Part shown: one piece after another, positions 7,563 through 59,896 of the stretch
How the letters are laid out: each line of letters starts with the position of its first letter
Position numbering within the stretch: position 1 is the first letter of the stretch
NCBI RefSeq assembly: GCF_900114435.1
Contig: NZ_FOZK01000001.1
Location: 372,001-436,000, forward strand
Length of the DNA stretch: 64,000 nucleotides
Origin: Halomicrobium zhouii
GTDB lineage: Archaea; Halobacteriota; Halobacteria; Halobacteriales; Haloarculaceae
Direction: 5' to 3'
Notes under the pieces: model-generated
Told to the model about the DNA's origin: nothing
The model's database searches: none
What the model saw: the letters and a program-made list of their open reading frames with translations, nothing else
Position numbers and translations under genes: made by a program

Positions 7563-7932
7563 CGTAGTGGTGGTTGTACCTTTGTACCGCCGTTCGGCGG
7601 GCCGGTGCCGGCGAACGCCGATAGACTCGCTGCGCTCGACTGCTGAGCCCCGACTCGCCATGCTCGTCGGGACGCCGACGGACTCGCGCTGCTCGTCCGT
7701 CGAGCCCACGCTCACTCCGTTCGCGTGGACGCCGGCAGACTCACTCCGTTCGTCTCCCGAACCCGGCCTCACGCAGTTCGGCCGGACGCCGGGTGACTCG
7801 CTGCACTCGTCTCCCGAGCCCGGCCCCACACAGTTCGACTGGACGCCATCGGATTCGCGCTGCTCGTCCGATGAGCCCTGTCTCGCTTCGCTCGACAGGA
7901 CGCCAGGACGGGCGTACAATCACCCCTACCAG
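7563..7932. repeat. 57-bp double-hairpin tandem repeat, locus 1, inside inverted ends
   Basis: About five 57-bp units run from about 7614 to 7904, each starting near GACGCC. Every unit holds two hairpins with similar loops (TCGCTGCGCTC-like) and different but complementary stems. Examples are GACGGAC/GTCCGTC, ATCGGA/TCCGAT, CACGC/GCGTG, CCGGCC/GGCCGG and CCTGTC/GACAGG. The block is bordered on the left by AGTGGTGGTTGTAC and on the right by GTACAATCACCCCTA, an imperfect inverted pair. The 19-residue repeat seen when it is translated follows from the 57-bp period and is probably not a protein. Confidence 0.7.
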
Positions 7933-10207: not shown

Positions 10208-10250
10208 TCGCGTTCGTCGCGACTCCTGCCGGACACCGCACCGACTCATA

Positions 10251-10360
10251 GTGGCGGTTGTAATTCGTTACCGGTATCCCCTCGCAACCGGCCGGTTCAG
10301 CTCCGGTTGAGCACTGTTAGTGTCTACCTCCTGAAAACCGTTACAACCACCACTATCACT
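10251..10360. repeat. inverted-end element of the GGTTGTAA family (without 57-bp units)
   Basis: AGTGGCGGTTGTAA at 10251 and the reverse-complementary TTACAACCACCACT near 10345 bracket about 80 bases. The left end also matches the left ends of the 57-bp repeat blocks at 7.56 and 54.75 kb. Confidence 0.45.
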
Positions 10361-20881: not shown

Positions 20882-21304
20882 TCACTGTTCGAAAATGCGG
20901 CCTGTTTCTCGTCTGCGGCCTCTGCCTCGAGACCGGAAGAACTGACCAGTGTCTACTCGGCCGGAATCCAGGGTGGATCGTACGTCCCCCGCCGGTCCAT
21001 TCACTCGACTTGCTCTGTTTCCCTTCGACAGGGTGATCTCCGTATTATCGTCGTCCGGAATGTCCACCGTATCACCGACGATCTGCATCTCCTGCAGAAG
21101 CAACTCCGCGTCATCGAGTCCATCAAGCGAATCTCCCGTATCGCTGTCTATGAGTTCGTCAACAGGGACAACTGCATACCGTCCATCGACGCTTCCCTGA
21201 TAGATGGTCTGGCGGTCGTATTCTCCACAACCGGCCATGATGGCTAACAATTCTCGTTTGTCGGTTTCGAACGTCACGAGTCGGCTCGTTTCTACCTGAC
21301 CCAT
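20882..21304 (-). CDS. uncharacterised small acidic protein
   Basis: 140 residues: SRLVTFETDKRELLAIMAGC, DRQTIYQGSVDGRYAVVPVD, then a basic tail (RSRGRGRRRETGRI). Base composition is intermediate between the core chromosome and the AT-rich island that begins just to its right, so it may be the last core gene or the first island gene. Function unknown. Confidence 0.5.
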   Translation of the reverse strand: MGQVETSRLVTFETDKRELLAIMAGCGEYDRQTIYQGSVDGRYAVVPVDELIDSDTGDSLDGLDDAELLLQEMQIVGDTVDIPDDDNTEITLSKGNRASRVNGPAGDVRSTLDSGRVDTGQFFRSRGRGRRRETGRIFEQ

Positions 21305-22250
21305 TCCAATTTAGCCGCAGAGTTGGGAAAGAAAGTTTGTTAGCCTAGAGTGGACTGGAAGTGAAAGTAAACGAGGCTGAAACCATTCCTCCTTATCAGT
21401 TCCAATTAGCAGCGGCTCTACAACTGGGTTCGGAATCTGCTTAGTAACCCGGGCAGCAGGACAGATCCATATCCAAATTTGGAGGTATTGGTAGCATGGG
21501 TGGTATGGGCGGCATGAAACGAAAGGTGATGGGGAAATTTGGCCGGTCTTAGAGGCCTCTTGGCAATCACAGTGTTACGGCCGTCGTAAATACGGCTATC
21601 ATGGGCGGTCCAAAGGGGTGGGGCAGCATGGGCGGTATGGGTGAAGTTTATGTATCTCGTAGCGTTACCTACAAACGGGTAAAGCGGTGGTCCGATCGAT
21701 ACGATCGGAACCAACCGTGTTTCTACATTCCGAGGAGCCTTGCGATTATCCAGACAATCTCGACTGTCGTTCTCACCTGTTCAAGGATACTTGGAACGTC
21801 GGCTTGTTCTTCCTCGTTATCTTCCCCATCTGTTCCTGGGGAATCCTGATTCTCTGCCATAGCTGGTGCTCATCGTGTAGCCCGACAGAGGACCAAAGTG
21901 GGTAAAGCGGTGGCCCGATCGGGCTACATGACGTTCTTCGGCGGATAGGTTGAAAAGGGTTCTGTGGCGGGACACATATGGCCGAAATGTGTGATCGAGT
22001 TAATAGAAATCCGCTAAACTACAACGGATAGAGTGGGTCTGAATAGTGACCCCATGCAGTTACGCGTCGACAGAAACCGGTTCTCTATTTTGCACACGTC
22101 GATGGCCATGCCCGTGTGCACAATGACCCAGTTGAACTACTCCGATCACATGGAAGCAGGGGGAGATATATCGTCAGCAGGGAATTCCATAAATAACACG
22201 CCCATTGAGTTAGTCGAAAAACTAGGATCGTAGGGAGCGTGTGCACAAAC
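21305..22250. other. gene-poor stretch at the left end of the island
   Basis: About 950 bases without a convincing gene. It holds two imperfect copies of a GGNAGCATGGGNGGTATGGG segment (near 21490 and 21626), a GCCGT/ACGGC hairpin (about 21580), a 14-bp direct repeat GGGTAAAGCGGTGG (21677 and 21900) and an inverted pair GTAGCCCGA/TCGGGCTAC (near 21873 and 21920). It looks like a graveyard of recombined fragments. Confidence 0.4.
22091..22120. promoter_or_regulatory. inverted TGCACACG/CGTGTGCA pair, possible operator
   Basis: TGCACACG (22091-22098) and CGTGTGCA (22113-22120) are perfect complements 14 bases apart. The same motif (CGTGTGCACA) returns at 22239-22248, directly before the ATG of the gene at 22251. 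Repeated sites of this form suggest a regulator binding region. Confidence 0.4.
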
Positions 22251-22529
22251 ATGAGGCTCCGAATGAACGACCGGCGCGAGCGGCGGTTCGAGAACCTGAT
22301 GGACGCCACAGGCGAAGGAACGAAAAGCGGGGCGCTCGATGTGGCTGCAGACTACTACCTCAAAATGAGTGGTGACAATCCCGCGGTACCGAATGGTGCT
22401 GTTCCCGATCTCATGAAACAAGCCGTCGAGAAGGGAAGCCTGACGCCAAACGAGATCGTGGACATCCTCTATACTGACGAACTACCCGTTGAGTACAGCC
22501 ACGAGTGGTCAACGGGGCGAGGCGAATAA
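22251..22529 (+). CDS. DUF7386-like small DNA-binding-type protein
   Basis: 92 residues: MRLRMNDRRERRFENLMDAT, GTKSGALDVAADYYLKMSGD, then a C-terminal part with LTPNEIVDILYTDELPVEYS. The basic N-terminal strand plus two helices resembles a ribbon-helix-helix fold, and the pattern matches a family common on haloarchaeal plasmids and proviruses (DUF7386). The ATG at 22251 is preferred over a GTG at 22239 because it starts with the fold. A TGTGCACA palindrome sits directly upstream, so self-regulation is possible. Confidence 0.65.
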   Translation: MRLRMNDRRERRFENLMDATGEGTKSGALDVAADYYLKMSGDNPAVPNGAVPDLMKQAVEKGSLTPNEIVDILYTDELPVEYSHEWSTGRGE

Positions 22530-22854
22530 CCGCCTAAGTCTCTCTAGAGTTCACTCACCACTACAATCGAAGCTCCAGAATCAGATACCGCCGGCGAGGC
22601 CCAAGTATAGCATAATAGTAACGGCGACAAAGGCTACCAACTCTTTCCAGTTTGCTTCAGTGAAGGTTTTCAGCCTATAGATCCTCGGATAATCTCTGTT
22701 CTTGCGCCTACCTTTCCGCTTCAATTTCTTAATGCCAAGTAGTGGGTAATCTCGTATAACGGTGGATCCATTGAATTTCTCCCGTACACTGGATGTCTTG
22801 TTAGCTCTGAAGCAATATTATATGGATGGGGATACACGCTTCTTTGGTACGACT

Positions 22855-23910
22855 ATGGCTATGAACCGATCCGAAGCAGTTCAAGAATTAATGAAGCGAA
22901 ATTATGAGGTTGATCCCTTGCAATTTGAACATCTCTGTAAGTTAGTTATTGAGGAGATCGAAAGACCAGAAGGAATCGAAACAACTCGGCGTAGCAAGGA
23001 TGGAGGGATTGATGTTCGAGGGTTTGTCGGTGGAAAGCTCTATAATGGTGAGTTTGGGGTTCAAGTGAAGCAATACGACAGTAAAGTTTCGTCGGGAGCC
23101 GTAAGAGGTCTTGCTGGGTCCCTTCAGAGCGGCGGATGTAGATTTGGGACGCTAATCACTACTTCTTCTTTTACATCGGATGCGATTGCAGAAGTAAATG
23201 ATACTGACAGTTTCTCTCTAGAATTGATAGACGGTGAGGAGCTTGCCGAGCTGATGTTGGACAATGAACTTGGCGTTAAGCAGCAGCCTGGGGAGGATAG
23301 TGAGGAATACATTATCGATCCAGAATTTTGGGGCCGGTTCGAAAAATTCTCTGGAGATTTGATTCCTTCCTGGCAAGTCCCACAAGCAGACTCGGACTTC
23401 ATTCTTGGATTAACGCTTACGGCGGTTAAAAATGGAGTCCGATATAAACCCGAAATTGCCGAATATTTAGCCCGGGAAACTGAGGACAATTGGACACCCC
23501 GTCAAGCAGATTATTATACTACGGCAGGGCAGATCTTGGGGTACTTGGAAGAAGGAAAATCCAATGAAGATAGTCTTGATATGCGTAGGTGGAGTCTTAC
23601 AGAAGCAGGGGATGAATATGTCTCGCTTCGATCAACTGGAAAGGAAGAATTGGCCTCTGACCATCTTGCCCAACGCATTAGCAGGGTAGATATCATCGAA
23701 GAAATTGTATCTGAAGTGAAAGAAGAGTACAAAATCCCAAGATCAAGGGTAGAAGAAATCATTCGTGAAAATACTGAGGTGACAGGAACCACAGTACGGA
23801 GGCGAACTAGCACCGTTGGTAAATGGCTTGGTCGCCATCCAGATGTGAAACGAATGGAATCTGGGATGGTCTGGTTTGAATACTACAAGATGGATCTCAC
23901 TGACTTCTAG
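22855..23910 (+). CDS. Mrr-like restriction endonuclease
   Basis: 351 residues. The N-terminal half is a restriction-endonuclease-like Mrr_cat domain: FEHLCKLVIEEI (about 24-35), KDGGIDVRG with Asp at about 53, then FGVQVKQY with the QxK pair at about 70 and 72. It continues to RGLAGSLQSGGCRFGTLITT and SSFTSDAIAE. The C-terminal half is unassigned and helical (DIIEEIVSEVKEEYKIPRSR, VEEIIRE). Mrr proteins usually cut modified DNA (known). The ATG at 22855 follows a TATA-like AATATTATATGG about 30-40 bases upstream; a longer GTG start at 22762 is possible. It converges with and overlaps the Dam-type methylase by 4 bases. Confidence 0.8.
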   Translation: MAMNRSEAVQELMKRNYEVDPLQFEHLCKLVIEEIERPEGIETTRRSKDGGIDVRGFVGGKLYNGEFGVQVKQYDSKVSSGAVRGLAGSLQSGGCRFGTLITTSSFTSDAIAEVNDTDSFSLELIDGEELAELMLDNELGVKQQPGEDSEEYIIDPEFWGRFEKFSGDLIPSWQVPQADSDFILGLTLTAVKNGVRYKPEIAEYLARETEDNWTPRQADYYTTAGQILGYLEEGKSNEDSLDMRRWSLTEAGDEYVSLRSTGKEELASDHLAQRISRVDIIEEIVSEVKEEYKIPRSRVEEIIRENTEVTGTTVRRRTSTVGKWLGRHPDVKRMESGMVWFEYYKMDLTDF

Positions 23911-24842
23911 AAGGTGTACTCAGTGAGATGGGTATCCCGCTCTCTCATTTCTATTGCGTTTGTTATGATCACTTCTTTGACTTCGCCGCGACTCTCTCCA
24001 TCTGAATTTATCGATCTCTTTGCACCTACACGGCTCACACGGAAACCATCTTCATTGAATGCCTGATATATCTCTCCCACTGATGGGGCATTGGAGATGA
24101 CGACATTGACCCCTTTGTCATTCAATTTCAAGGCTACGTCTCTTAACCGTTCCTGCTCTTCTTTGCCAAATGCTCCTGAACTATATTCCGAGAAGGTGGA
24201 CGCTTCTCCATTCGGATCATATGGAGGGTCGCAATAAACTAGATCGCCTTCTTTAGCTTGGTCAATGATATAGGAGAAATCTTCATTATATATTTCCACT
24301 CCTTTGAGAGCCTTACTTGCTTTTTTGATTCGTGATTCTTGGACCCAATCTGGATTAGTATACGAACCACATGGTACGTTAAATTCTCCAGACTGGTTCT
24401 CTCTGTATAGGCCATTAAAACAAGTCCTGTTCAGATATAGTAACAAAGCAGCCTCTTCAACTTCATCGAAAGCGAGATCTCGCGGACGGCGGTTAAAGAG
24501 CTCTCTCTGTTGGTAGTAGTAATTGTCAATCTTATCGCCACTCTCACTTTGTTTTGAATATGGTCGAGACGTATCAGGTTCCGATTCAGGATGGTCAAAG
24601 CCAGAAAGAATCTCAATTAATTCACCGGGTCTTTCTCTCACTATCTCATAAAAATTCATCAACCGAGTATTAACATCGTTTATGGAGGCGGTATCCTTGT
24701 GTGTCTCTCTAAAGAAAATTGCGCCTCCTCCAAAGAATGGCTCATGGTAAGAATTAATGTCCTCTTCCGGAGGAAAGTGACCACGTATTTGAGCAAGAAT
24801 TTGTCTTTTTCCTCCAGCCCATTTGAGGATCGGCTTCGGCAT
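23907..24842 (-). CDS. dam: DNA adenine N6-methyltransferase (Dam/D12 class)
   Basis: 311 residues, close to the usual Dam length. The AdoMet region is KPILKWAGGKRQIL (residues 3-16) and EPFFGGGAIFF (34-44). The class signature NRTCFNGLYRENQSGEFNVP is at 138-157, and the catalytic DPPY at 205-208. It transfers a methyl group from AdoMet to adenine N6 in DNA; the recognition site cannot be told from sequence, though Dam-like enzymes often act on GATC. It is tail-to-tail with the Mrr-like nuclease, so it may protect DNA as part of a restriction system or act as an orphan methylase. Codon use is AT-rich like the rest of the island. Confidence 0.9.
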   Translation of the reverse strand: MPKPILKWAGGKRQILAQIRGHFPPEEDINSYHEPFFGGGAIFFRETHKDTASINDVNTRLMNFYEIVRERPGELIEILSGFDHPESEPDTSRPYSKQSESGDKIDNYYYQQRELFNRRPRDLAFDEVEEAALLLYLNRTCFNGLYRENQSGEFNVPCGSYTNPDWVQESRIKKASKALKGVEIYNEDFSYIIDQAKEGDLVYCDPPYDPNGEASTFSEYSSGAFGKEEQERLRDVALKLNDKGVNVVISNAPSVGEIYQAFNEDGFRVSRVGAKRSINSDGESRGEVKEVIITNAIEMRERDTHLTEYTF

Positions 24843-24961
24843 TGTTTATCTCACAGGATCCCAGGATCTTAAATCTACGTACTATGTAGCTAGCTATCGA
24901 TTTGTTCCAAAGTTATAATAGTAGCTAGAAGCTCGAAGTATGATAGAACAAGTAAGATATC

Positions 24962-25258
24962 ATGACCAATGATAATCCTCTATCTGATTTTGATATACAA
25001 GCTAACCTGTCTCCGGACGATCCAAAAGATTTCGTTAGCCATGATATCTATCTAAGAAGGAGATACAATGAAGGGATGATGAAAAGTATTCAGAAGGAAA
25101 TCGAGGGAATGGTTAGATTGTATGCTGGCTTGGAATCGAAGTTGGATGAGGAGTCAATGCGTGTTGTAGATAACTGCTTCCGCAATGAATTGGATTCCTT
25201 GCGGTGTCTTGAGGATCGTGTGATGAGGTTAGATATACGAAAGATTGTAGAGGATTAG
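24962..25258 (+). CDS. small uncharacterised island protein
   Basis: 98 residues, charged and mostly helical (LRRRYNEGMMKSIQKEIEGM, LDEESMRVVDNCFRNELDSL). No family recognised. It is divergent from the methylase and converges on the AIPR gene. Its AT-rich codon use and helical order suggest it is a real island gene, perhaps a small accessory or inhibitor protein; that is speculation. Confidence 0.5.
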   Translation: MTNDNPLSDFDIQANLSPDDPKDFVSHDIYLRRRYNEGMMKSIQKEIEGMVRLYAGLESKLDEESMRVVDNCFRNELDSLRCLEDRVMRLDIRKIVED

Positions 25259-25347
25259 ATTCTTGATCCAGCTATTTGTCCCTGATCCTTACCATCCTGA
25301 TTGAATGGGGAACTAACCCATCAGAATCACGATCTCACGGTAGGTGA

Positions 25348-26805
25348 TTACTTTGGCTTTGTATAGTGATACGCTTCATCCAGAGGCTGGTGTTTCATTG
25401 GCTCTGCTTCTGATGGTGCTTCACTCTTCGGTTGTAGCACATCTGAACTATCCACATCACGGTTTACTACAAGCCCATGAGATGCATTTTCCCAATTATC
25501 TGCAGTTGTATACCTCTGACCTGTTTTAACTTCGTACACATGCTCCGGTGCTTCTGTAACTTCTTGGTTCATGCCATGTTTATATAGGCCATGCGTAAAT
25601 GGTCCATTGAGTCTAATGAAATTTTTCGAATCTTTACCGCTGTCCTTGTAATCTCCTTGAAGATTGTTTAAAACCTCAAGACTACGTTGTTCAAAGAGCC
25701 GTACCGGGTCGCGGAACCAACCAACTAAGTTTGTATTTTCGACGTCACTGGTCGAGCAGTAAATGTTGGAACGGAACAACCCCACCATTAGGACTTCTAG
25801 GGGTGAAGTGAGTTTGAATCCTTCCGCATTTTCGAAGTTGTTGAACACGAGATCGCGATTGTCTGATTTAATATAGTCCTGAAAGAGCGCAGTTCGTCTT
25901 ATTCCTCCTGGATATTCGTAGTATTCTAGGTGGTGTGAAATTAGGTCTCTCAGAAAGAAAACATCGTTTACAAAGGGAGTTAGATACTGAAGTGGGCGGT
26001 TATAGTCTTCACCGTTCTCCATTTGCCACTCATCCATTCTTTTCTTCCATTTATTGTGAATTCGAGTTACGCTAGTTGCTAATGAGCTGTGGTTCTTTCC
26101 CCGTTGATCGTAAAGTGGATGGCCATATTGCTTCACATCTAACGATTTTAGTAAGCGAAAGAATTGGTATGCATCAATTGCATACTTATTCGCATCTGAA
26201 TCGCCTTCATGCCAATGCACGAGGTTTTGATCAATCAATTGGCTCTTGAAATCGTCATAATATCCTAAGAAATTCGCTTCAGAGCGCTCTTGCAATTGGT
26301 TATTATTGTTTCGCGCATCGGCGATCTTGGCAATTTGGTTCTGCCGGTGAGTCGATGTCGCGTCTGGGGTGTTGAGTTCGATGACTTCTAAGTGAGCAAT
26401 GGCTTTCTTATTATCAGTATATTTGTTGATTGCTAGCAATGTATGGCCACCGTTACAGACTCCTTCTCCCTCCTCAAAGCCAAGCTTGACTTCGCCATTA
26501 GAGCTCTTGACTGAAGAAGCAAGTACAACAATCCCGTTGTTCCTATTTACAAACTCAGTGGGCTCGCTTTGTAGAGTTTGCTTCATCGCTTTAACTTGTG
26601 TTGTGACTTCTGGTTCGCGTGGATTAGCTTCTAATGGAAGATCTGCATGCTGTAACTCACTACAGCGAACGTAGAAGTGATGAATATCATACTTGGCACT
26701 ATATTTTGTGAGACCAAAATTTTCGTCTCTGAGATGAGAGAGGGTGACCTCACAAGGAGGCTCCTTAGCAGCGAGTTTTGAAGAATTGTTATCGGTGTCG
26801 CTCAT
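25348..26805 (-). CDS. AIPR family abortive-infection protein
   Basis: 485 residues. The AIPR core is clear: FVNRNNGIVVLASSV (about 83-97), VCNGGHTLLAINKY (about 112-125) and QIAKIADARNNNNQLQERSE (about 155-175), followed by the long helical region typical of the family. AIPR proteins are found in phage-defence loci and are linked to abortive infection (known); the biochemical activity is not settled. It starts 110 bases from the OLD-type nuclease on the other strand, so the two share one intergenic control region. The C-terminal ~50 residues are polar and possibly disordered. Confidence 0.82.
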   Translation of the reverse strand: MSDTDNNSSKLAAKEPPCEVTLSHLRDENFGLTKYSAKYDIHHFYVRCSELQHADLPLEANPREPEVTTQVKAMKQTLQSEPTEFVNRNNGIVVLASSVKSSNGEVKLGFEEGEGVCNGGHTLLAINKYTDNKKAIAHLEVIELNTPDATSTHRQNQIAKIADARNNNNQLQERSEANFLGYYDDFKSQLIDQNLVHWHEGDSDANKYAIDAYQFFRLLKSLDVKQYGHPLYDQRGKNHSSLATSVTRIHNKWKKRMDEWQMENGEDYNRPLQYLTPFVNDVFFLRDLISHHLEYYEYPGGIRRTALFQDYIKSDNRDLVFNNFENAEGFKLTSPLEVLMVGLFRSNIYCSTSDVENTNLVGWFRDPVRLFEQRSLEVLNNLQGDYKDSGKDSKNFIRLNGPFTHGLYKHGMNQEVTEAPEHVYEVKTGQRYTTADNWENASHGLVVNRDVDSSDVLQPKSEAPSEAEPMKHQPLDEAYHYTKPK

Positions 26806-26915
26806 AGGAATACTAGCTCCTTCTGCCCAGAGAAATTATAATTTTGGGAACGACAGCCGATATAGTCCTCAACTTTTTATCGGAGGTGCAAGAATTGAGT
26901 CTCTATACCCTGGGT

Positions 26916-29048
26916 ATGATAGAAGAGTTTACTATTCAGAACTATCGATCGATCTGGGAATCTACAACTCTGCCTGTCGATGACAGGATCTCTATCCTTA
27001 TCGGGGCAAATGAAGCTGGCAAATCGAACGTCCTGAAAAGTATCTCCAAGTTCCAAAATGAGCGTCCTTTGGTCCCAAATGAGTTAAGCAATGTACACCA
27101 ATATGATCCGAATTCATATGATGACGTTGAATTACTTACCACTACCCTTTCAGAAGAAGCTAAAAGCCAGATTAAATGGCTAAACAAGCCATATGTAACT
27201 TCAGATCTCATTGATATTCCCCCAACAAGGGATACGACTGATGATGAATTTGATGAACTTAAAGCCGGTCCGCTCTTAGAACAGGCTAAAGTTCAGATCG
27301 TTCGTTATGCCAGTGGGGATCATCTTTTATCGTTCACTCCGAGTTCTGGAGATTGGGGTCATAGAGAGCAAGATTTATTGGAGGAATATCCAATGCCCCT
27401 GGAAGACTTTCTCGAAAAGCGGGAAAATGACCTAATTACATTAGGGCGGAAATTTCTTCATGATGTTCAAGAAAACCCTCGCTTGAGTGAGATTCTGGGT
27501 GATGATTTTCCGGTCAGTACTCCAGCAGATGTCCGGGAAAGTTTAGAGAGAGTTGAACATCAATTCAGGGACCAGAATGATGGTAACATCCCCTCAGACG
27601 AGGACATCTATTCAGGCAGCGAAGGGGAAATTTCAGCTGGTCCTGCAACCATTGAGGTAGCTTCTCAGGCATCTACATTACGAACAACATTAGCTGAAGT
27701 CACAAGTGAAAGCAATCCGCTAGGGAGCCTGCCTGTTATAATTGACCAAATGGAAATATCCCTTGCCAGACCAAAATATGATATTCTTGAAGACCGACAA
27801 TCCCCTGTTTTACACGGGCTATTTCGACTCGGCTCTATCGCCTTGGATAGTTACAATTCATTTGAATCAGATCAACTGAAAGACGATCTGGAATACGCAT
27901 GCGATGAGTTAGAGCGTTATCTCAATGCTTTCTGGGCTTTTGATTATTCAAGGCGAGAAGGAATTGATGAATTGCCTGCGGTTTCTGACGCTCCATATTC
28001 AGTCAGCTACAATTTAACAAGCACCACCGTGGAACTGCGATTGGGCGAGGGTGATGAGGAGCCTGTGCCTTTAGACCAGCGGAGCGACGGTATGCGATGG
28101 ATTTTAACTTTTCTTTTGTCCGTTCTTGCAGAGGGCAACGCAACTGACAAGCGTGGAATTATCTTACTTGACGACCCCGGCATTCATCTCCATCCAGAGG
28201 CTGAGAAGAAATTGTACCGTGCCTTATATTACGTTGTTCCAGAAGCACAGATTATCTATAGCACCCATTCACCGGTATTAGTTGATCAAAGAAATCCACA
28301 ACAGCTCCGGATCGTCAAGTATAGTGGGGAAACTGGAACATCTGTAACGACTGATTTGGGCTCTGCAAGAGACGAGGAATCTCAGATAGATTTACTTTCG
28401 ACCGCGCGAGATGCATTGGGTTGGACACTTTCGGACTCATTGTTTGGCGGAAAGAAAACAATTCTAGTTGAAGGTCAGAGCGATAAGCTATATTTGGAAG
28501 TTTTCAATCAATTCTTCAGTTTCCAGGAAGACAGGGAACACCTCGATGAACAGGTTAGATTTGTCGTAGGTGGCGGGGATCGAATCGCATTTTTGTCACG
28601 GATATTAAATGCTGAAGAAGTAGAACATGTATTATTGTTAGATGATGACAAGGCTAGCCAAGAATTCGACGATTGGATGGAGGATCGGACTCTGTATTAT
28701 CGAGACATAGAATGGGAGGACTTGGAAGTTGATTATCCTATTGAAGTAGAAGATTTAATCGAAACGGAACTGCTTGTATCCTCTCTCAACGATATAGTTG
28801 GGGGAATTTTAGATGAAAGCTTGATTCTTCAGCGTGCAGACGTCACAGAGCAGCCCATCATGGATATTCTTGATGATGAACTCGATGACGAAGATCTAGA
28901 CATAGATGCTTTTAAAAAGGAATTATCAACCAATATCACCTCCACTCTCCGAACTGCCCTTAGAGAAGGAGACAGAGAGTACGAAGAAACAGAACAGAGG
29001 TTTGAACGGGTTATTAACAAACTATCTTCGGAACTAAGCGAAGGATGA
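26916..29048 (+). CDS. OLD-family ATPase/TOPRIM nuclease
   Basis: 710 residues from the ATG at 26916 (MIEEFTIQNYRSIWESTTLP). The Walker A is GANEAGKS at 30-37, the ABC-type Walker B IILLDDPGIHLHPEAE is near 415-430, and STHSPVLVDQ follows. The TOPRIM domain starts about residue 515 with KKTILVEGQSDKLYLEVF and continues with HVLLLDDDKAS about 575. This is the layout of OLD and GajA nucleases, which combine an SMC-like ATPase with a metal-dependent DNA nuclease (known). An upstream TTG at 26844 is possible but begins 24 residues before the fold. It is divergent from AIPR, so a two-gene defence module is a reasonable reading (inference). Confidence 0.85.
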   Translation: MIEEFTIQNYRSIWESTTLPVDDRISILIGANEAGKSNVLKSISKFQNERPLVPNELSNVHQYDPNSYDDVELLTTTLSEEAKSQIKWLNKPYVTSDLIDIPPTRDTTDDEFDELKAGPLLEQAKVQIVRYASGDHLLSFTPSSGDWGHREQDLLEEYPMPLEDFLEKRENDLITLGRKFLHDVQENPRLSEILGDDFPVSTPADVRESLERVEHQFRDQNDGNIPSDEDIYSGSEGEISAGPATIEVASQASTLRTTLAEVTSESNPLGSLPVIIDQMEISLARPKYDILEDRQSPVLHGLFRLGSIALDSYNSFESDQLKDDLEYACDELERYLNAFWAFDYSRREGIDELPAVSDAPYSVSYNLTSTTVELRLGEGDEEPVPLDQRSDGMRWILTFLLSVLAEGNATDKRGIILLDDPGIHLHPEAEKKLYRALYYVVPEAQIIYSTHSPVLVDQRNPQQLRIVKYSGETGTSVTTDLGSARDEESQIDLLSTARDALGWTLSDSLFGGKKTILVEGQSDKLYLEVFNQFFSFQEDREHLDEQVRFVVGGGDRIAFLSRILNAEEVEHVLLLDDDKASQEFDDWMEDRTLYYRDIEWEDLEVDYPIEVEDLIETELLVSSLNDIVGGILDESLILQRADVTEQPIMDILDDELDDEDLDIDAFKKELSTNITSTLRTALREGDREYEETEQRFERVINKLSSELSEG

Positions 29049-29137
29049 CATAGCTATCAGATATATATCTCTCTTGCTCTACTAGCTAAGTTAAATCCAT
29101 TTCTGATCATCTATCTCAACCCTTTGTCTCCAATTGT

Positions 29138-29629
29138 CACTATGTGGACCAGCACAGTATCTGCGAATATCTTGGGGCCGCTGGCATACAAGATTCGCAA
29201 ATACGGCGGGTCGCTCATCGTCATCGGCCACGACGGCAAGGACGTCCACCCACTGATTCGGGAACTCGGGACGGCCATCCACAAGGAGGGACTCAAGGAA
29301 GCCACATTCTACCAGGACGTCCGAAACCGTCGCGGCCACCGGCCGATCATGTCGGTCACCGGGATTCCCGAGAACGACTGGCGGTACGACGAAAAGGAAC
29401 CGACGTCGTGGAGCTGGTCCGGAGAGGACGTCGAGTACGACGACGCCGTCGAGGACGTCGCGATGTGGACCATCGTCAATGAGCGCGAGCAAGAGGGCCC
29501 CGTTGCGTACCGGTAACTGGCGAAAAAGACGCTGTGGGACCCTCTACCTGCTCTCGCCGGTGGAAGCGGTACAAGGAGGACGGCAAGTACGTCGATGCGG
29601 TGCAACGAGTGGAGAACCTAATCGCATGA
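29138..29629 (+). pseudogene. C-terminal remnant of a virus/plasmid-type ATPase
   Basis: A GC-richer fragment in the AT-rich island. The first frame reads ANILGPLAYKIRKYGGSLIV, IGHDGKDVHPLIRELGTAIH and so on to EGPVAYR, then a stop at 29514. Two further frames continue plausible protein (LAKKTLW, then LYLLS, then RRWKRYKEDGKYVDAVQRVE and a TGA at 29629). This means at least two frameshifts. The N-terminal ATPase half is missing. The style resembles HerA/Zot-like packaging ATPases of haloarchaeal viruses and plasmids, but that assignment is from memory of the pattern, not a search. Confidence 0.5.
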
Positions 29630-29794
29630 TTGGAGTACGACGCACGGCGTTGCACGTTGCACCACCCCCGGCGTACTGGAAAGTGCAGGCCCATGGCACG
29701 CTCGCCGGAGGCGAGCGTGCGCCAGCCATGGGCAATCGCCCGAAGACGGCCGGAGGAGTGATATATATGACGCGCGACGAGCGCGCGATCTCCA

Positions 29795-30226
29795 ATGAGT
29801 CGGTCACACAAAGCGAACCACTACGGGACGCTCTGCGAACGGAAAGCAGCCGAGTGATATGGACTCAAACTTGACCGATCTAGTTGGCATGATGCGCGCC
29901 GCGGTGATGGGGCACCTATCGAGATCAAGAGCACGATGTATCGGCACGCAGATAGGCAACCCGGGACTTTCAAGCTCTATTCGACCTATTACCAAAAACT
30001 CAGGCGAGAAAAGGGTTGGTACGTATTTGCCGTCTATCGAATCCGGGGAAGGGGCATACAGGTAGTATGTATGGAAATGCGCCATTCATCAAGGCTTCCT
30101 AAACTCAATTGGCATGGCGGTGGAGCGCACCGGAATGCCACCAAAGCAAGCTCCCCATTGCAGACATATTTGGAAAGTCAACTCTACGATGATATGATTA
30201 AACAAATGCGGATGGAAAATGACTAG
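29795..30226 (+). pseudogene. PD-(D/E)XK-like nuclease gene with in-frame TGA at codon 21
   Basis: One frame runs 143 codons from ATG 29795 (MSRSHKANHYGTLCERKAAE), hits TGA at 29855-29857 and continues without further stops to TAG at 30224. Downstream sequence includes YGLKLDRSSWHDARRGDGAP, then IEIKSTMYRHAD, with an E-x-K pair fitting a PD-(D/E)XK site. It then reads GWYVFAVYRIRGRGIQV and LNWHGGGAHRN. The whole resembles a small nuclease-like protein common on haloarchaeal proviruses. A single base change (for example CGA to TGA) explains the stop. The 96-residue ORF from 29936 is a leftover part. Confidence 0.6.
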
Positions 30227-31182
30227 CTTGTTTCGGGGGAAATATAATCAGGATTTGTTCTTATATACTGAATTGTCCCATCAAGTTCTCGAATAAGATC
30301 GTCGGTTTCAGTGGTTAGCTCCTCCTGTTCTCCCTTCATTTCATCAAATCTTTCCAGTAACTCAGGATGGTTCTCATGCATTTGATCTCTAAAGTGGGAG
30401 GTGAATGATAACCAAAAGGCTAGAGCATATTCATTTTGCCTGGGAGTGTTCCCCGCAATTAGATTCGATATAAGATCATCGGTATCAAATTCAGGGGCGT
30501 CATCCCCAGAGGTTATATTCACAATTAACCCGTCGCGATCTTGGATTTCATGATACGGGGGTTCCTCATCTGCATCATAAGGGACACCGGTTGTTTGAAT
30601 CTCAGTCTGTCGTAATATCCTTTTAATCACTGGCTCCAGATCATCTGAAACCCTTCTAGCATCTATACTGTATGAAACAAAGTCAGAGTACAATTCGCGA
30701 ATCTCTGTAGTGAATTCTGGGTAGGCTTGGGAAAATATATGGCTCAGCGAATGTGATGCAGTCCCTGCATCAAATGGATTCTGGAATGGTTCCGGGGTAG
30801 AGGTATTATCCCATCGCACAGTACTGTCGTGAAGAGAATTTAGATTAGATACCAGTGCTGATTTCATAGGAACCAAATGATCTGAGATGATATCCTCAGC
30901 AATATCCTGGTAGCGCTCTCTTTTGTCAACTCTCAAACTATGTCTGAGAACGGCGAGGTTGGCGGCGACAAGTAATACTGTTGCAAGTGTTCCAGCAGCA
31001 CGAAGATACAATTGGGTAGTGTCCGCAGTCCAGTCCAGCCAATGGTATCCGCCGATTGAAAGTAAAACTGCTATAGTAGTTATTGCCAATGTAGTTAAGA
31101 TGAATGACAAATAAGACACATTCAGGTCTGTGAAAGATCTGAAATCAATATCCTTGAAGCGCCGGACGAAATTCCATGTCAT
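30223..31182 (-). CDS. two-TM membrane protein with long cytoplasmic helical domain
   Basis: 319 residues. Two membrane helices (YLSFILTTLAITTIAVLLSI and AAGTLATVLLVAANLAVLRH, residues ~24-90) are followed by some 220 mostly helical, acidic residues ending in coiled-coil-like sequence (RFDEMKGEQEELTTETDDLI). This layout resembles membrane effectors in prokaryotic defence islands, but I do not recognise a family. It converges with the broken nuclease gene by a 4-base overlap. A TATA-like TTTAAAATA lies on the minus strand about 40-50 bases upstream. Confidence 0.6.
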   Translation of the reverse strand: MTWNFVRRFKDIDFRSFTDLNVSYLSFILTTLAITTIAVLLSIGGYHWLDWTADTTQLYLRAAGTLATVLLVAANLAVLRHSLRVDKRERYQDIAEDIISDHLVPMKSALVSNLNSLHDSTVRWDNTSTPEPFQNPFDAGTASHSLSHIFSQAYPEFTTEIRELYSDFVSYSIDARRVSDDLEPVIKRILRQTEIQTTGVPYDADEEPPYHEIQDRDGLIVNITSGDDAPEFDTDDLISNLIAGNTPRQNEYALAFWLSFTSHFRDQMHENHPELLERFDEMKGEQEELTTETDDLIRELDGTIQYIRTNPDYISPETS

Positions 31183-31284
31183 AGCTGGTTGTTCTGGGTA
31201 CCTGCCGTTTGTTTGTGGGGTAGTATTTTAAATTCGTGGCCTTAGCCACACCTCTAAAGCGGAATACAACCCACCGGGTTGGAT

Positions 31285-31776
31285 TCAAAGCGGCCAGGCT
31301 CTTGGCTCAGTGGCCAGTCCATGCTCCTCGAGATCGTCACCGTGGCTGGGACGGCGAGAAAGAGGCGAAAATAGTGGTGTGTTCGGTGTGTAGAACAGTG
31401 ATGCCTCTATCCTGACCCGGCGCAACCCGGTGTTCAGGAACCGCCAAGCCTGGCCGACACTCCCGTCAGGGAACCGTACGGTTGCCTGTCGGAACCGTTC
31501 TTCTGGCAGTCCGGCGTCTGTCCACACCCGGAATCCCTTGCGGAGTGACTCGCCGGCCTTCGTGACCGTCTTCGTCCCATCAAAGCGGAGCGTCATCTGG
31601 GCCTCATGGTCGTCGTTCACGTCGACAACGTGGCAGGCGGCCCACGCGATGAATGCGCCCATCGTCTCGCCCAGCCCACACTCCGCAGCTTCTGCAGCCT
31701 TCACGGTCGTCCCGATATCGTAGTGTGTGAATGGCGCATACGCGCCGTTCGAACGTGAGTGCCGTGAAAAGTTCAG
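31285..31776 (-). pseudogene. uncharacterised ORF fragment at the island's right end
   Basis: The minus-strand frame contains a plausible protein stretch (VKAAEAAECGLGETMGAFIA, then VNDDHEAQMTLRFDGTKTVT, then FRQATVRFPDGSVGQAWRFL). It has no good start: upstream the frame runs straight into the duplicated tRNA-Pro end at 31777-31793. Probably a gene cut by integration or recombination at the att site. No family recognised. Confidence 0.3.
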
Positions 31777-31793
31777 TGGGACCACCCGGATTC
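31777..31793. repeat. 17-bp copy of the tRNA-Pro 3' end (att-like direct repeat)
   Basis: TGGGACCACCCGGATTC is identical to 31907-31923, the last 17 bases of tRNA-Pro read on the plus strand, in the same orientation. Direct repeats of a tRNA 3' end are the hallmark of tyrosine-integrase integration (known). The 130 bases between the copies also contain an inverted T-arm fragment (GGTTCGAATCCGG, 31846-31858). Confidence 0.65.
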
Positions 31794-31906
31794 TCACCAG
31801 AGGAAGACGGTCGGCCTCACTCCGTTCGGCCGCTGCGACTTCCAGGGTTCGAATCCGGCGGCTCTTGATCGATTTACTCCTCACGTCCGTTCGTCGCAAA
31901 ATCGAA

Positions 31907-31977
31907 TGGGACCACCCGGATTCGAACCGGGGTCACGAGCACCCAAGGCTCGAAGTATACCACTAACCCATGGTCCC
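31907..31977 (-). tRNA. tRNA-Pro (UGG)
   Basis: 71 bases on the minus strand. The acceptor is GGGACCA/TGGTCCC, discriminator A. The anticodon arm is CGAGC-CTTGGGT-GCTCG with U33 and anticodon TGG. The T arm is CCCGG-TTCGAAT-CCGGG. CCA is not encoded. Its 3' end is duplicated at 31777, marking it as the integration site of the neighbouring island. Confidence 0.93.
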
Positions 31978-32064
31978 GCACTAACACGTCCATCCTTCGC
32001 AAGGTAAAGCGTTTCGTTGCAGATCAGTCCACGATACCGACCGACACGATCCACGCCGGGCGGG

Positions 32065-43685: not shown

Positions 43686-43762
43686 GGACGCCGATAGACT
43701 CACTCCGCTCGTCTATCGAGCCCTGCGCTCCCTCCGCTCGCGCAGGACGCCTGCCCGCCACC
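43686..43762. repeat. 57-bp double-hairpin repeat, locus 2 (single unit)
   Basis: One unit with both hairpins: CGATAGAC/GTCTATCG (8 bp) and CCTGCG/CGCAGG, with the usual loops. The second hairpin overlaps the end of the HNH gene and supplies its last codons and stop. Confidence 0.6.
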
Positions 43763-44552
43763 GGAGTTCCGCCCGCGAGTAGTGGCCGAACTCGGCGCGG
43801 CGGTGACAGGCGATGCAGAGGGAGACGACGTTGTCGAGGGTGTGGGCGTCTGCCATCGAAAACACTGGCGACTCGACGAAGACTCGAACCGGAATGATGT
43901 GATGAACGTCCGGATTACGGCCCAGCGTTTCAGCGTCGGCTCCGCAAATAACGCAGGCGTATTCGTCCCGTTCGAGCGCCTGACTGCGAACCTGGTCCCA
44001 GCCTGATCCATACGCTTCGTTCCCACCGCCACGCCAGTTTGGATGTCCCTCTCCCGTAAATTCCTCGGAAATCCACTCTGCGAGACAGTCACGACAGCAG
44101 AGCGTCGCCTCGCCATAGACGCCACTCGGGTACCGTTCGAACGACACATCGCAGACGTCGCACGTGTACTGTCGTTTCCCCCCTTTCCAGCGTGGATTCG
44201 CATCGCCTTCGAGATGGGGCGTCGTTCGCCACGACTCACTTTCGACACACGTCGAGCAGAACTTCCCCGGTTTCTCACTGGGGTAGTACTCGAAGTCAGC
44301 CCCACAGATCTCACACGCCGTGGTTTCCTTCCCACCCCGGTAGTTCGGATTGTTCTCACCATCGTACGAGACTGCTCTATCGTGGCACTCAGACGAGCAG
44401 TACTTCTTCGCGTAGTCGCTGTAGAACGAGACACCACACTCCTCACACTCACGATTCGGTAGGCGCTCGTCGTGCGAAGCGCTGTGATGGACGCCCAGTC
44501 CACGCCTGCTATCGAACTGATCACCACAGGTCGGACACGTGTGTTCCGCCAT
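43713..44552 (-). CDS. HNH endonuclease with zinc-finger array
   Basis: 279 residues. The N-terminus has a C2H2-like finger (CPTCGDQFDSRRGLGVHHSA). Three similar CxxC...CxxC units follow (ECEECGVSFYSDYAKKYCSS; ACEICGADFEYYPSEKPGKF; CDVCDVSFERYPSGVYGE), each followed by a short Pro-Asn-(Y/W)-R/K-G-G linker. The C-terminal HNH domain reads CVICGADAETLGRNPDVHHI, then LDNVVSLCIACHRRAEFGHY, giving the two metal CxxC pairs and the catalytic His-His. A DNA nuclease of the type found in homing or defence genes. A leaderless promoter (TTTTTAATTT) precedes it. The gene's 3' end is made of the 57-bp repeat. Confidence 0.82.
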   Translation of the reverse strand: MAEHTCPTCGDQFDSRRGLGVHHSASHDERLPNRECEECGVSFYSDYAKKYCSSECHDRAVSYDGENNPNYRGGKETTACEICGADFEYYPSEKPGKFCSTCVESESWRTTPHLEGDANPRWKGGKRQYTCDVCDVSFERYPSGVYGEATLCCRDCLAEWISEEFTGEGHPNWRGGGNEAYGSGWDQVRSQALERDEYACVICGADAETLGRNPDVHHIIPVRVFVESPVFSMADAHTLDNVVSLCIACHRRAEFGHYSRAELRWRAGVLRERRERRAR

Positions 44553-48505: not shown

Positions 48506-48601
48506 GTCTGACGATTGGGCGGCCAGCGAGTAAAGGTACTGGGCGTGCGGGGCGGAGCCGCTGCTGGTCGGGCACGGTATCGCGAAGAAACGGGAGTCAG
48601 C

Positions 48602-48780
48602 CGGCGTCCAGTCGAACTGTGTGAGACTGGGCTCGGGAGACGAGTGCAGCGAGTCTCCCGGCGTCCGGCGGAACTGTGTGAGGCCGGGCTCGGGTGACGA
48701 CCAACGGGAGTCAGCCGGCGTCCAGTCGAACTGTGTGAGACTGGGCTCGGGAGACGAGTGCAGCGAGTCTCCCGGCGTCC
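48602..48780. repeat. 57-bp double-hairpin repeat, locus 3 (reverse orientation)
   Basis: Three full units and a 7-base tail, in the opposite orientation to loci 1, 2 and 4. Units 1 and 3 are identical; unit 2 differs in both stems, keeping them paired (CCAGTC/GACTGG against CCGGCC/GGCCGG-like). It lies between the cupin gene and the small zinc protein. Confidence 0.75.
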
Positions 48781-53690: not shown

Positions 53691-54752
53691 ATGACAGAGC
53701 CGGGCGACCGGTCACTGAGCAGACGCGTGTTCGTGAACGGACGTGAACGGCGACTCCGGGCCGGGTGGCGGTTGATCGCTGCGACGTTCATTCTCGTCCT
53801 CGCGTCGCTGGCGCTGTTCCTCGCCGTCGACTACGCCCAGGCGATCCTGTCGTTCGCCGGCCCGCTGGTCGTCGGCGGAATCCTCGCCTCGACACTCGTG
53901 GCCCAGACCGCGTCGAACGTCCTCATCACGGGCGTGCTCGTGGTCGCCGCGTGGTTCGTCGACCGCCGGACGCTCCCCGACGTGGGGCTCGGCGGCCGGC
54001 GCTGGTGGCCAAACCTCGGCTTCGGCCTCCTCCTCGGCCTGGCGATGACGACGGCCGTCTTCGCCGTCGAACTCGCCGCCGGGCTGATCACGGTCGAACA
54101 GCTGTTCCTCAGCAGGCCCGGGCTCGGTATCGACGAATCGTTCCCCGTCGCGTTCGTCCTCACCGTCCTCATGTTCGTCGCCGTCGGCGTCGGCGAGGAG
54201 GTGCTGTTCCGTGGCTACCTGATGACGAACGTCGCCGAGGGGCTGAACGGGCTCGGCCCGATCGGTCCCCGGACCGCCCTCGGTATCGCTGCCGTGGCCA
54301 CCTCGGCCATCTTCGGAATCGTCCACATCGCCAACCCGAACGCGACGCTGGTCTCCGCGTTCAACATCACCGTCGTCGGCGTCTTCCTCGCGTGGACGTA
54401 CATCGTGACCGAAGACCTGGGCATCGCCATCGGCGTCCATATCACCTGGAACTTCTCGCTGTCGTCGGTGTACGGCTTCCCCGTCAGCGGACTGACGACG
54501 CCGGCGACGGTCCTCGACGTCCGCCAGACCGGCGATCCGTTGGTCACTGGTGGCTCGTTCGGCCCCGAGGCCGGTCTCGTCGTCTACGTGGCGCTGGCCC
54601 TCGCCATCGGCCTCACCTGGTGGTGGGTCCGCCGGAGCGGCGCCACGGACTGGTTCCCCACCGGCGTCGCCGTCCCGGACCTGCGGAACTCGCGCGACGA
54701 AGGGGCTTCCGACGGGGAGCCGCGACGGACTGCGGGCGGCGGGGCGGACTGA
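53691..54752 (+). CDS. CPBP-family intramembrane protease
   Basis: 353 residues with about eight membrane helices. The active-site motifs are visible: VGVGEEVLFRGYLMTNV (EExxxR), FGIVHIANPNATL (FxxxH) and GVHITWNFS (HxxxN). CPBP proteins cleave membrane proteins such as prenylated targets (known for eukaryotic relatives). The ATG at 53691 begins the cytoplasmic N-terminus; an upstream ATG at 53637 is less likely. Downstream lies locus 4 of the 57-bp repeats. Confidence 0.85.
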   Translation: MTEPGDRSLSRRVFVNGRERRLRAGWRLIAATFILVLASLALFLAVDYAQAILSFAGPLVVGGILASTLVAQTASNVLITGVLVVAAWFVDRRTLPDVGLGGRRWWPNLGFGLLLGLAMTTAVFAVELAAGLITVEQLFLSRPGLGIDESFPVAFVLTVLMFVAVGVGEEVLFRGYLMTNVAEGLNGLGPIGPRTALGIAAVATSAIFGIVHIANPNATLVSAFNITVVGVFLAWTYIVTEDLGIAIGVHITWNFSLSSVYGFPVSGLTTPATVLDVRQTGDPLVTGGSFGPEAGLVVYVALALAIGLTWWWVRRSGATDWFPTGVAVPDLRNSRDEGASDGEPRRTAGGGAD

Positions 54753-55004
54753 TAGTGGTAGTTGTAACGTTGTACCGGCGTTCGCCGGTACCGGCCACGT
54801 CGAACGCCGGGAGACTCGCTGCACTCGTCTCTCGAGCCCAGTCTCACACAGTTCGGCCGGACGCCGGCTGACTCGCTGCACTCGTCTCCCGAGCCCAGTC
54901 TCACACAGTTCGACTGGACGCCGGCTGACTCCCGTTGGTCGTCACCCGAGCCCACGCTCACTCCGTTCGCGTGGACGCCGGTACGGGCTTACAACTACTA
55001 CTGT
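54752..55004. repeat. 57-bp double-hairpin repeat, locus 4, with inverted ends
   Basis: Left end AGTGGTAGTTGTAACG (54755); right end CTTACAACTACTACTGTGAG (54989), its imperfect reverse complement. Between them are three full units (54802-54979) with paired stems CCAGTC/GACTGG, CGGCCGGAC-type arms and CACGC/GCGTG. It overlaps the end of the CPBP gene's downstream region and the start of the gap to 55077. Confidence 0.75.
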
Positions 55005-57257: not shown

Positions 57258-58373
57258 ATGCACTACCGCGAGCTCGGCAACTCCGGCGTGGAGGTGTCGG
57301 AGGTCGGCTTCGGCGCCTGGGTCGTCGGCACCGACTGGTGGGGGGACCGCACGCGCGAGCAGGCGATCGGCATGGTCCAGCACGCCCTCGACGAGGGCGT
57401 GACGTTCTTCGACACGGGCGACGTCTACGGCCACGGGAACTCCGAGGAACTCGTCGGCGAGGCGCTGGCCGAACACCGCGACGAGGTCACCCTCTCGACG
57501 AAGGTGGGGTACGACTTCTACAACAACCCGCAGGCCGGCCACGGCGAACTCCCCAAGGAGATGGACGCCGACTACCTCCGCACGGCGTTCGACCGCTCCC
57601 TGGAGCGCCTGGACACCGACTACGTGGACCTGCTGATGCTCCACAACGCCAACGTCGACGAGGTGACGCCGGACGTCCTCGAACTCCTCGACGAACTCCG
57701 CGAGGAGGGGAAGGTCGAGGCCATCGGCTGGGCGCTGGGCCCCTCCATCGGCTGGCTCGCCGAGGGCGACGCCGCCATCGAGAACGAGTTCGACGCCGTT
57801 CAGGTCGTGTTCAACCTGTTCGAGCAGACCCCCGGCCAGCACTTCATCGACACCATCCGGGAACTCGACGCCGACACGAGCGTCCTGCCCCGCGTTCCGC
57901 ACTCCTCGGGCCTGCTGAACGAACAGGTCACCCCCGAGACGGAACTCGACGAGGGCGACCACCGTGGGTTCCGGCCCGAGGAGTGGTACGAGACGGGCTG
58001 GGAGAAGGTAGAGACGCTGCGCTTCCTCGAACGGCCGGAACGAAGTTCCGGCGACGGCGCGAGCGGCGACGAGCCGCGAGCGGACCCGGACCACGCCGAC
58101 GGCACCCGTACGATGGGCCAGGCGGCGATCCAGTGGCTGCTGGCCCACGACGAGGTGGCGAGCGTCACGCCGACGTTCCGAACCACCGACGACGTCGACG
58201 AGTGGGCGGGCGCCTCCGACACGCCGCCGCTCTCCGACGCAGAGTTCGAGCGCGTGCAGGCCCTCTACGCGGACAACTTCGGGATCGACCGCGACGACGG
58301 GATGGACGCGCTTCGCTCTTCGGTCGACGGGGCTGACCTCGAGGGGACCGGGATGAAGTCGGCGGGCGACTGA
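57258..58373 (+). CDS. aldo/keto reductase
   Basis: 371 residues with the TIM-barrel AKR motifs: MHYRELGNSGVEVSEVGFGA, VTFFDTGDVYGHGNSEELVG (Asp and Tyr), VTLSTKVGYDFYNN (Lys), LMLHNANVDEV (His) and AAIQWLLAHDEVASVTP near the NADPH end. Reduces carbonyls with NADPH; substrate unknown. Slightly longer than usual because of an acidic insertion near residue 255. A ~59-bp direct repeat begins at its last codons. Confidence 0.9.
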   Translation: MHYRELGNSGVEVSEVGFGAWVVGTDWWGDRTREQAIGMVQHALDEGVTFFDTGDVYGHGNSEELVGEALAEHRDEVTLSTKVGYDFYNNPQAGHGELPKEMDADYLRTAFDRSLERLDTDYVDLLMLHNANVDEVTPDVLELLDELREEGKVEAIGWALGPSIGWLAEGDAAIENEFDAVQVVFNLFEQTPGQHFIDTIRELDADTSVLPRVPHSSGLLNEQVTPETELDEGDHRGFRPEEWYETGWEKVETLRFLERPERSSGDGASGDEPRADPDHADGTRTMGQAAIQWLLAHDEVASVTPTFRTTDDVDEWAGASDTPPLSDAEFERVQALYADNFGIDRDDGMDALRSSVDGADLEGTGMKSAGD

Positions 58374-58495
58374 CCACACGCACGTCTCGTCGTGGGTGGT
58401 CGTCGGTTGACCGTCGAAGGCGGGCGACTGACCACACCCACGCCTCTCGTCGTGCGTGGTCGTCAGTTGACCGTCGGAGGTGGGCGACTGAGGGA
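58363..58495. repeat. about 59-bp direct repeat starting in the AKR stop region
   Basis: Two units (58 and 60 bases) begin GGGCGACTGACCACAC and contain GTCGGTTGACCGTCG-type sequence; a third start GGGCGACTGAG follows. The first unit includes the AKR codons and TGA, so the repeat was copied from the gene end. The rest of the gap to 58805 is AT-moderate sequence with no gene that I can support. Confidence 0.6.
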
Positions 58496-58804: not shown

Positions 58805-59896
58805 TCAGGACGCTGACGTCACGCCGGAGAACTCGAACCGGGCGCCCCCGTCGTCGCCGTCGGTCACGCGCACCGACCAGCCGTGGGCGTCGGCGATGCG
58901 GTCGACGATGGCGAGGCCGAGGCCGGTGCCGCCCTCGTCCGCGTTGGTCGTGTAGCCGGGTTCGAACACCTCGTCCCTGTCTGGTGCCGGGACGCCGGGA
59001 CCGTCGTCCGCGACGAAGAAGCCCGACGCGTCGTCGAGGGGGCCGACGACGACGGTTACGTCACTGCCGGCGTGTTCGACGGCGTCCTCCCGAGCGTGCG
59101 AGGGTGGGCTCGTGGAGCTATGCTCCACGGCGTTGCGAAAGAGGTTCTCCAGGAGCTGACTGAGGAGGCTCTCGTCGGCCTCGATGCGATCGATCGGCTC
59201 GACGGTCAGCGTCGCGTCCGCGGTGGCGACGTGCGACCAGGCGTCGCGGACGACCGTGGGGAGGTCCACGGCCGAGAGCTGTTCCACGTCGGTCTTGCGA
59301 GCGAGCACGAGCGCGTCCTCGACGATCGTGTTCATCCGTTCGAGCGAGGACCGGACGGCCGCGACCTGTTCGTCGTCGCCGTCGAGCAGTTCGGCCCGGC
59401 CGAGCGCGACGTTCAGCGGGTTCCGGAGGTCGTGGCTCAGCACGTCGGTCAGGAGCGTGAGCTGGTCGTTGCGCTCCTCGACGGCGAGTTCGGCCTCCCG
59501 GCGGTCGGTGATGTCCGTGTGGACGACGAGGACACAGCGGCTCCCCTGGTACTCGAACGGGAGCGCCCGCATCATGAACCACCGGCGCTCGTCGGGCGAG
59601 TGACAGGGGTACTCGAACTGAAACGACTCCCGTTCGCCGTCGATGATGGACCGGATACCGCTCGCGGCCTCTGTCGCCGTTTCGTCGCCCTCTGCGGCGT
59701 CACACGTGTCGAGATAGTTCTGGCCGATCATGTCCGGGTGGAACGCGATGCCGTTGTCCTCCGCGAAGGTCGTCCAGCACCCGTTCGTCTCCAGGATGGT
59801 TCCGTCCGCGTCGAGGACGGCCACCTCGCTTGGCATGGCGTCGAAGGCGAGCGACCGGAGTTCGTCCGCCTCGACGCGTCGGCGTGAATCGGTCAC
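58805..59896 (-). CDS. PAS-domain sensor histidine kinase
   Basis: 363 residues. One PAS/PAC region (SEVAVLDADGTILETNGCWT ... FEYPCHSPDERRWFMM) is followed by a HisKA helix with the phospho-acceptor (LSHDLRNPLNVALGRAELLD) and the HATPase domain (N-box FRNAVEHSS, G1 VADDGPGVP, G2 GGTGLGLAIV). No membrane helix, so a soluble sensor. No response regulator is adjacent, so its partner is unknown. The stimulus cannot be told. Confidence 0.88.
   Translation of the reverse strand: MTDSRRRVEADELRSLAFDAMPSEVAVLDADGTILETNGCWTTFAEDNGIAFHPDMIGQNYLDTCDAAEGDETATEAASGIRSIIDGERESFQFEYPCHSPDERRWFMMRALPFEYQGSRCVLVVHTDITDRREAELAVEERNDQLTLLTDVLSHDLRNPLNVALGRAELLDGDDEQVAAVRSSLERMNTIVEDALVLARKTDVEQLSAVDLPTVVRDAWSHVATADATLTVEPIDRIEADESLLSQLLENLFRNAVEHSSTSPPSHAREDAVEHAGSDVTVVVGPLDDASGFFVADDGPGVPAPDRDEVFEPGYTTNADEGGTGLGLAIVDRIADAHGWSVRVTDGDDGGARFEFSGVTSAS

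Follow-up and report, generated by a model that had tools for sequence, protein, structure and literature searches.

The 57-bp repeats of the haloarchaeon Halomicrobium zhouii contain two hairpins whose fold is kept under many different stem sequences, and we propose, with a probability of about 0.6, that the unit is a REP-like palindromic repeat of haloarchaea, mobile and non-autonomous, which is kept and mobilised in the form of folded single-stranded DNA. The window, a stretch of 64,000 nucleotides, belongs to a high-GC genome of 4.25 Mb, of which about 0.79 Mb was read in stretches; genes were called with a simple codon model, the unit sample was gathered by sequence similarity, and covariance-model E-values are rough.

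As the original prediction stated, the unit with its two stem-loops is present at all four loci, at about 7.6, 43.7, 48.6 and 54.8 kb of the window. Its 57 bp read GACGCC-A(7)-TCN7TC-A'(7)-GAGCC-B(5)-TCN7TC-B'(5), with stems of 8 bp (A) and 6 bp (B), one flanking pair included in each, hairpins of 27 and 23 bp, and linkers AGC and ACGC. A five-unit array lies at 7614-7904, where the folding (GA) strand is the minus strand. In its second unit, hairpin A spans 7676-7702 (stem 7676-7683/7695-7702) and hairpin B spans 7706-7728 (stem 7706-7711/7723-7728), both on the minus strand, on which their tips at 7684-7694 and 7712-7722 read GA-GC-AGC-GC-GA and GA-AC-GGA-GT-GA, respectively. A lone unit without MITE at 43687-43751 (minus) runs into the 3' end of an ORF for an HNH endonuclease (43713-44552, minus), whose final residues it encodes, and three-unit arrays occupy 48603-48779 (folding strand plus) and 54803-54979 (minus), the latter within a MITE. 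Tandem Repeats Finder reported the arrays at 7670-7869, 48594-48780 and 54804-54981, and a degenerate partial match (47 bits) was found at 59081-59134 (plus), inside a histidine-kinase gene (58805-59896, minus). The stems quoted in support of the prediction are all present and pair, but only intact ones had been quoted: in the 7.6-kb array full pairing is seen in a single A stem out of five and in four of the five B stems, the others having one mismatch or being half-and-half chimeras. Elsewhere in the window, a 60-bp tandem duplication (58361-58491; 2.2 copies, 90%) looks unrelated to the 57-bp unit, and an AT-rich stretch at 21000-32000 (GC 0.42-0.50 versus about 0.67 around it), with a tRNA gene near its edge (31907-31977), is probably an integrated element.

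To exclude pairing as a criterion, units were chosen in three species by 25 connector letters alone; in the resulting 115 units the stems paired more often than expected from their columns (for example, 0.90 versus 0.31, 0.90 versus 0.30 and 0.82 versus 0.39). A covariation test, as proposed with the original prediction, was run on 46 aligned, non-redundant units: pairing held in 93.2% of cells, compared to 30-37% when partners were slid by 1-3 columns, double-sided changes had occurred in 16 of the 18 base pairs, and the covariation score of 0.532 (0.185 in shuffles) was reached in none of 500 shuffles. Chance is excluded as the source of the stem pairing. The unit also occurs with other stems in other genera (23 units from 19 genomes), a set that leans towards paired copies because it was fetched with the structure model. 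That the fold and not the sequence is kept, as had been claimed, is borne out in the three species and in the 19 further genomes; the compensation itself turned out to be of another kind. At orthologous arrays, whose flanks are about 92-97% identical, stems were either unchanged or the whole unit had been swapped for another type from the genomic pool, so that the covariation owes more to the swapping of stem types from a shared pool than to paired point mutations.

The loops do stay similar, as predicted, both 11-nt loops sharing the motif GA-NN-NNN-N'N'-GA on the minus strand; they had been treated as unstructured, yet an inner pair is present. In the 46-unit alignment, the inner two tip positions covary as A-U, G-C and C-G (columns 14/20 and 42/48); restricted to distinct loop types the test is not significant, the support coming from the count per unit and from unrelated stems. 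GA opposite GA is the sequence of a tandem sheared G.A step. The 11-nt loop is folded: above the tandem G.A step come two pairs that covary, and a triloop, in most cases GNA, closes the tip. The commonest tip triplets, GGA and GAA, fit the GNA triloop known from stable DNA mini-hairpins (PMC6479982).

The GA tip is an independent module that also caps unrelated stems elsewhere in the genome. With the arrays and 400 bp on each side masked, GA..GA was present in 18 of the 61 perfect 8-bp inverted repeats with an 11-nt spacer, the background being 1.2%; the inner pair was found in 16 of these 18 hairpins, which had 13 different stems. In the same scan the signal was absent at spacers of 8-10 and 12-15 nt, and at spacer 7 a GC-GNA-GC type of tip was enriched instead. 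Two further observations concern these tips. At L083:2097 and L091:1952 hairpin A carries its 11-nt tip in the opposite orientation to the remainder of the unit, while its stem still pairs fully or largely. Hairpin-rich islands of several hundred bases with many GA tips were seen at L138:2400-3030 and, in similar form, in L032, L040, L137, L139 and L140; they share a CGCCCTTTCAGTCC motif and, in some copies, a 122-bp conserved core that is 98% identical.

The array had originally been treated as a static covarying repeat, whereas comparison of related genes shows the unit to be mobile. A histidine-kinase gene of H. zhouii (L128) and its orthologue in genome G005 (L154), 90.9% identical across 3.8 kb, each carry one exact in-frame 57-bp unit in the catalytic domain. 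The insertion sites differ, and the site filled in one gene is empty in the other. One of these two sites holds three units (57 aa) in a paralogous kinase of the same genome as L128, a kinase of genome G006 has two units at the corresponding ERH/GGD site, and an orthologous spacer contains one additional 57-bp unit in G005. In-gene copies in G006 number five or six among 19 clusters, one of them in a GCS2-family protein; in-frame insertion has affected unrelated protein genes (kinases, the GCS2-family protein and others). These outcomes between species show that the unit inserts as exactly 57 bp, and for histidine kinases they document in-frame insertions of 19 residues within the catalytic domain. 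With its length of 57 (3 x 19) and no stop in the frame normally used, the unit is tolerated within genes. An apparent in-gene unit at L014:14119 was dismissed as a chance codon-pattern match. A protein-coding origin is ruled out by the intergenic position of most copies in H. zhouii and the use of several frames within genes, a phage origin found no match among phage records, and in a plasmid search only short matches turned up, on four haloarchaeal plasmids.

The array borders, variable on the left (NACGCC) and nearly constant on the right (GGACGCC), suggest an insertion target like CGCC^G, which would also be carried at the element's own end. Adjacent units are no more alike than units of other loci (similarity 0.555 versus 0.57-0.61), and the closest relative of a unit was located elsewhere in 78 of 87 cases; tandem slippage is therefore ruled out as the origin of the arrays, which are assembled from a genome-wide pool of units.

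Two of the four window arrays, at 7.6 and 54.8 kb, are parts of MITEs: they lie within an 82-bp element that grows in 57-bp steps. This outer element has the traits of a MITE, namely terminal inverted repeats (ends TAGTGGTGGTTGTAA), a target duplication and no ORF, and measures 82 bp when empty, 139 bp with one unit and 253 bp with three. The copy at 7564-7929 (plus) comprises 82 bp and five units (5 x 57) between degenerate terminal repeats GTAGTGGTGGTTGTAC and GTACAATCACCCCTAC; the copy at 54752-55004 (plus) is exactly 253 bp long (82 + 3 x 57) with TGA on both sides; and a related 109-bp copy at 10248-10356 has the same ends and no 57-bp units. Nearly all MITE copies read are flanked on both sides by an identical TCA or TGA triplet, a target duplication of the TNA type that some IS5-family elements also make, and from this target we suspect an IS5-type cognate transposase. 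MITE ends were not found at the 43.7- and 48.6-kb loci, nor at the G006 arrays read, which indicates that the unit spreads on its own.

The tips further show a one-strand polarity that a palindrome read as double strand does not need. Of 49 pairs of neighbouring tips, 47 shared a strand, as did 15 of 15 outside the unit matches; a few tips inverted within otherwise normal units count against the reading favoured here. With RNA parameters the GA strand gave the more stable fold in 105 of 107 units (-28.4 versus -22.4 kcal/mol for the TC strand), and with DNA parameters it did so in 104 of 107 (-14.0 versus -12.3 kcal/mol, a small gap); this strand difference in stability rests on the energy parameters.

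The stronger fold with RNA parameters would suit a structured RNA made from the GA strand, whose hairpins would serve in 3' ends, as terminators or as a small RNA, and a hairpin was found to end 59% of transcripts in Haloferax volcanii (PMC7237163). The same reading gains from a second hairpin-array family with the same GA tips and GTAG/GCAG feet, which begins 4-15 nt past stop codons on the coding strand (L015:11847-11948, L020:683-783, L023:7100-7203, L024:1762-1860 and L035:17500-17611; also L024:16816-17047 and L012:8015-8111). Its hosts are housekeeping genes (adenosylhomocysteinase-, carA-, MutS- and GTPase-like), in several cases the repeat supplies the TAG stop, and its stems pair wholly or largely in 18 of 18 copies selected without regard to pairing; this second family is possibly an RNA or 3'-end element. 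The 57-bp arrays, however, have no such orientation towards genes: of 16 scored, 6 were divergent, 5 antisense to both neighbours, 3 convergent, 1 co-directional and 1 intragenic, which speaks against a terminator or mRNA 3'-end element for this family. Mismatches of the G.U type were no commoner than those of the mirror A.C type (26 versus 24), so G.U intermediates are not favoured. The lack of both a G.U preference and a gene orientation argues for DNA rather than RNA. In-frame copies within coding sequence also speak against a structured RNA, as does an Rfam search of the window, which returned tRNAs only and nothing on the 57-bp unit, and we hold this explanation to be unlikely.

We attach a similarly low probability to neutral palindrome correction, by which template switching or hairpin repair would perfect quasi-palindromes and yield pairing without selection or recognition. 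Stems that pair regardless of their sequence, the block-wise swapping of stem types and the frequency of imperfect or chimeric stems (imperfect A stems in 62 units) are what such a process might leave behind. It does not account for stem lengths fixed at 8 and 6, for conserved linkers, tip and foot, or for tips that all lie on one strand, and exact 57-bp insertions at new sites exceed the repair of existing palindromes.

The covariance model gave 106 unit matches in the H. zhouii genome (E<=0.001) and matches in 136 of 145 haloarchaeal genomes, covering 55 of 58 genera; about 100 genomes that belong to the same phylum but not to the order contained no unit. No mobilising enzyme was found, a point against the reading favoured here. 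Unit number does not follow Y1 transposases, as all 46 Y1-free genomes carry units and all 9 unit-free genomes carry Y1, and no GA tip was found within 1.5 kb of the tnpA/tnpB (IS200/IS605) loci examined in H. zhouii and four other genomes. These results weigh against a non-autonomous IS200/IS605 (Y1, HUH) element, in effect a very small PATE or REP that a TnpA or RAYT of the host would mobilise, even though two same-strand hairpins per unit, hairpins in ssDNA, the lack of a clear target duplication and a target motif shared with the element end all follow IS200/IS605 and REP/RAYT logic. Two haloarchaeal Y1 proteins tested were of the IS200 type and below the RAYT cut-off. As ends are not shared and unit number is uncoupled from Y1, dependence on Y1/IS605 (PATE/REPIN) was rejected, and we consider this origin very improbable.

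The reading that we favour, a mobile palindromic repeat handled as folded single-stranded DNA, could operate as follows. One strand presents a head-to-tail hairpin pair, 5'-GGCGTC-hairpin B-GCTC-hairpin A-3', each hairpin combining a freely varying stem with the conserved tip fold of tandem G.A step, two pairs and triloop. Recognition and copying would act on this folded ssDNA (here the minus strand), for example on the lagging-strand template, and a putative recombinase or nuclease may read the hairpin tip and foot; this would explain why stems need only to pair and why tips and feet are conserved. Judging from the flanks, the unit would land beside GGCG/GGNG, which reads CGCC^G on the complementary strand and is also present at the unit's own end, later units would land beside earlier ones and so give in-phase arrays, and the unit would also land inside MITEs. 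The structured hairpin tip predicts a shape-reading protein. More tentatively, haloarchaea may harbour a domain-specific, class-wide hairpin-repeat system of at least two families (CGTC-like and GTAG-like feet), defined by the folded tip (tandem G.A and GNA-type triloop) and mobilised as ssDNA by an enzyme, neither RAYT nor Y1, that reads tip shape and foot and not stem sequence.

No earlier description of the 57-bp haloarchaeal repeats was found in the literature searched, which left out most subscription journals, and haloarchaea lay outside the sample of a recent REP survey that included archaea. Among known haloarchaeal elements, the SMRs, PATEs and MITEs of Haloquadratum walsbyi (PMC3119063) are likewise short, transposase-free and able to enter other mobile elements; unlike the 57-bp unit, the SMRs are 80-110 bp long with terminal inverted repeats, no 57-bp double hairpin is described among them, and the PATEs derive from IS605 ends (PMC3119063). 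The BrickBuilt MITE of Porphyromonas gingivalis (PMC4596501) also holds a tandem array; its 23-bp units are always intergenic and species-limited, whereas the haloarchaeal inner unit is dispersed and also occurs without the MITE.

By analogy, the 57-bp repeats appear to work like REPs. With the GTAG REPs and REPINs that have a RAYT they share an ssDNA hairpin with a tetranucleotide foot, and the second haloarchaeal family resembles bacterial GTAG REPs in its GTAG/GCAG feet and in supplying TAG stop codons; in contrast, the haloarchaeal repeats have no RAYT link, and the bacterial dimers are inverted (head-to-head or tail-to-tail). The likeness extends to CGTC-tagged REPs, which include Rickettsia RPE-4 and RPE-6 and Neisseria dRS3 and have no known mobiliser (PMC3733652). 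As in these, short palindromes are present in high copy, the hairpins falling within the 20-40 bp range, and form heterodimers with intragenic copies and no dedicated flanking transposase; Rickettsia RPE copies also lie in frame within genes according to a review (PMC10969869). The unpaired 5' foot GGCGTC is CGTC-like (columns at least 90% conserved in alignment A1, the last C also pairing in the stem), and the foot of hairpin A is GCTC, not GGCGTC, which may be compared with the CCTC variant. Two defining traits differ. CGTC REPs have an 8-9 bp stem and a 4-5 nt loop, whereas the 57-bp unit has 8- and 6-bp stems with an 11-nt structured tip, and their dimers are mainly head-to-head, head-to-tail ones being negligible, whereas the haloarchaeal dimers are strictly head-to-tail (the 47 of 49 pairs above). 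We therefore treat the haloarchaeal repeats as a head-to-tail variant of the CGTC-tagged REP/RPE palindromes and not as members of this class, from which they also differ in being archaeal, class-wide and arranged in tandem with a 57-bp phase. The question of the CGTC-REP mobiliser becomes testable by comparative genomics through an archaeal counterpart that spans a whole class, shows clean reciprocal insertions in sister species and has both unit-bearing and unit-free genomes.
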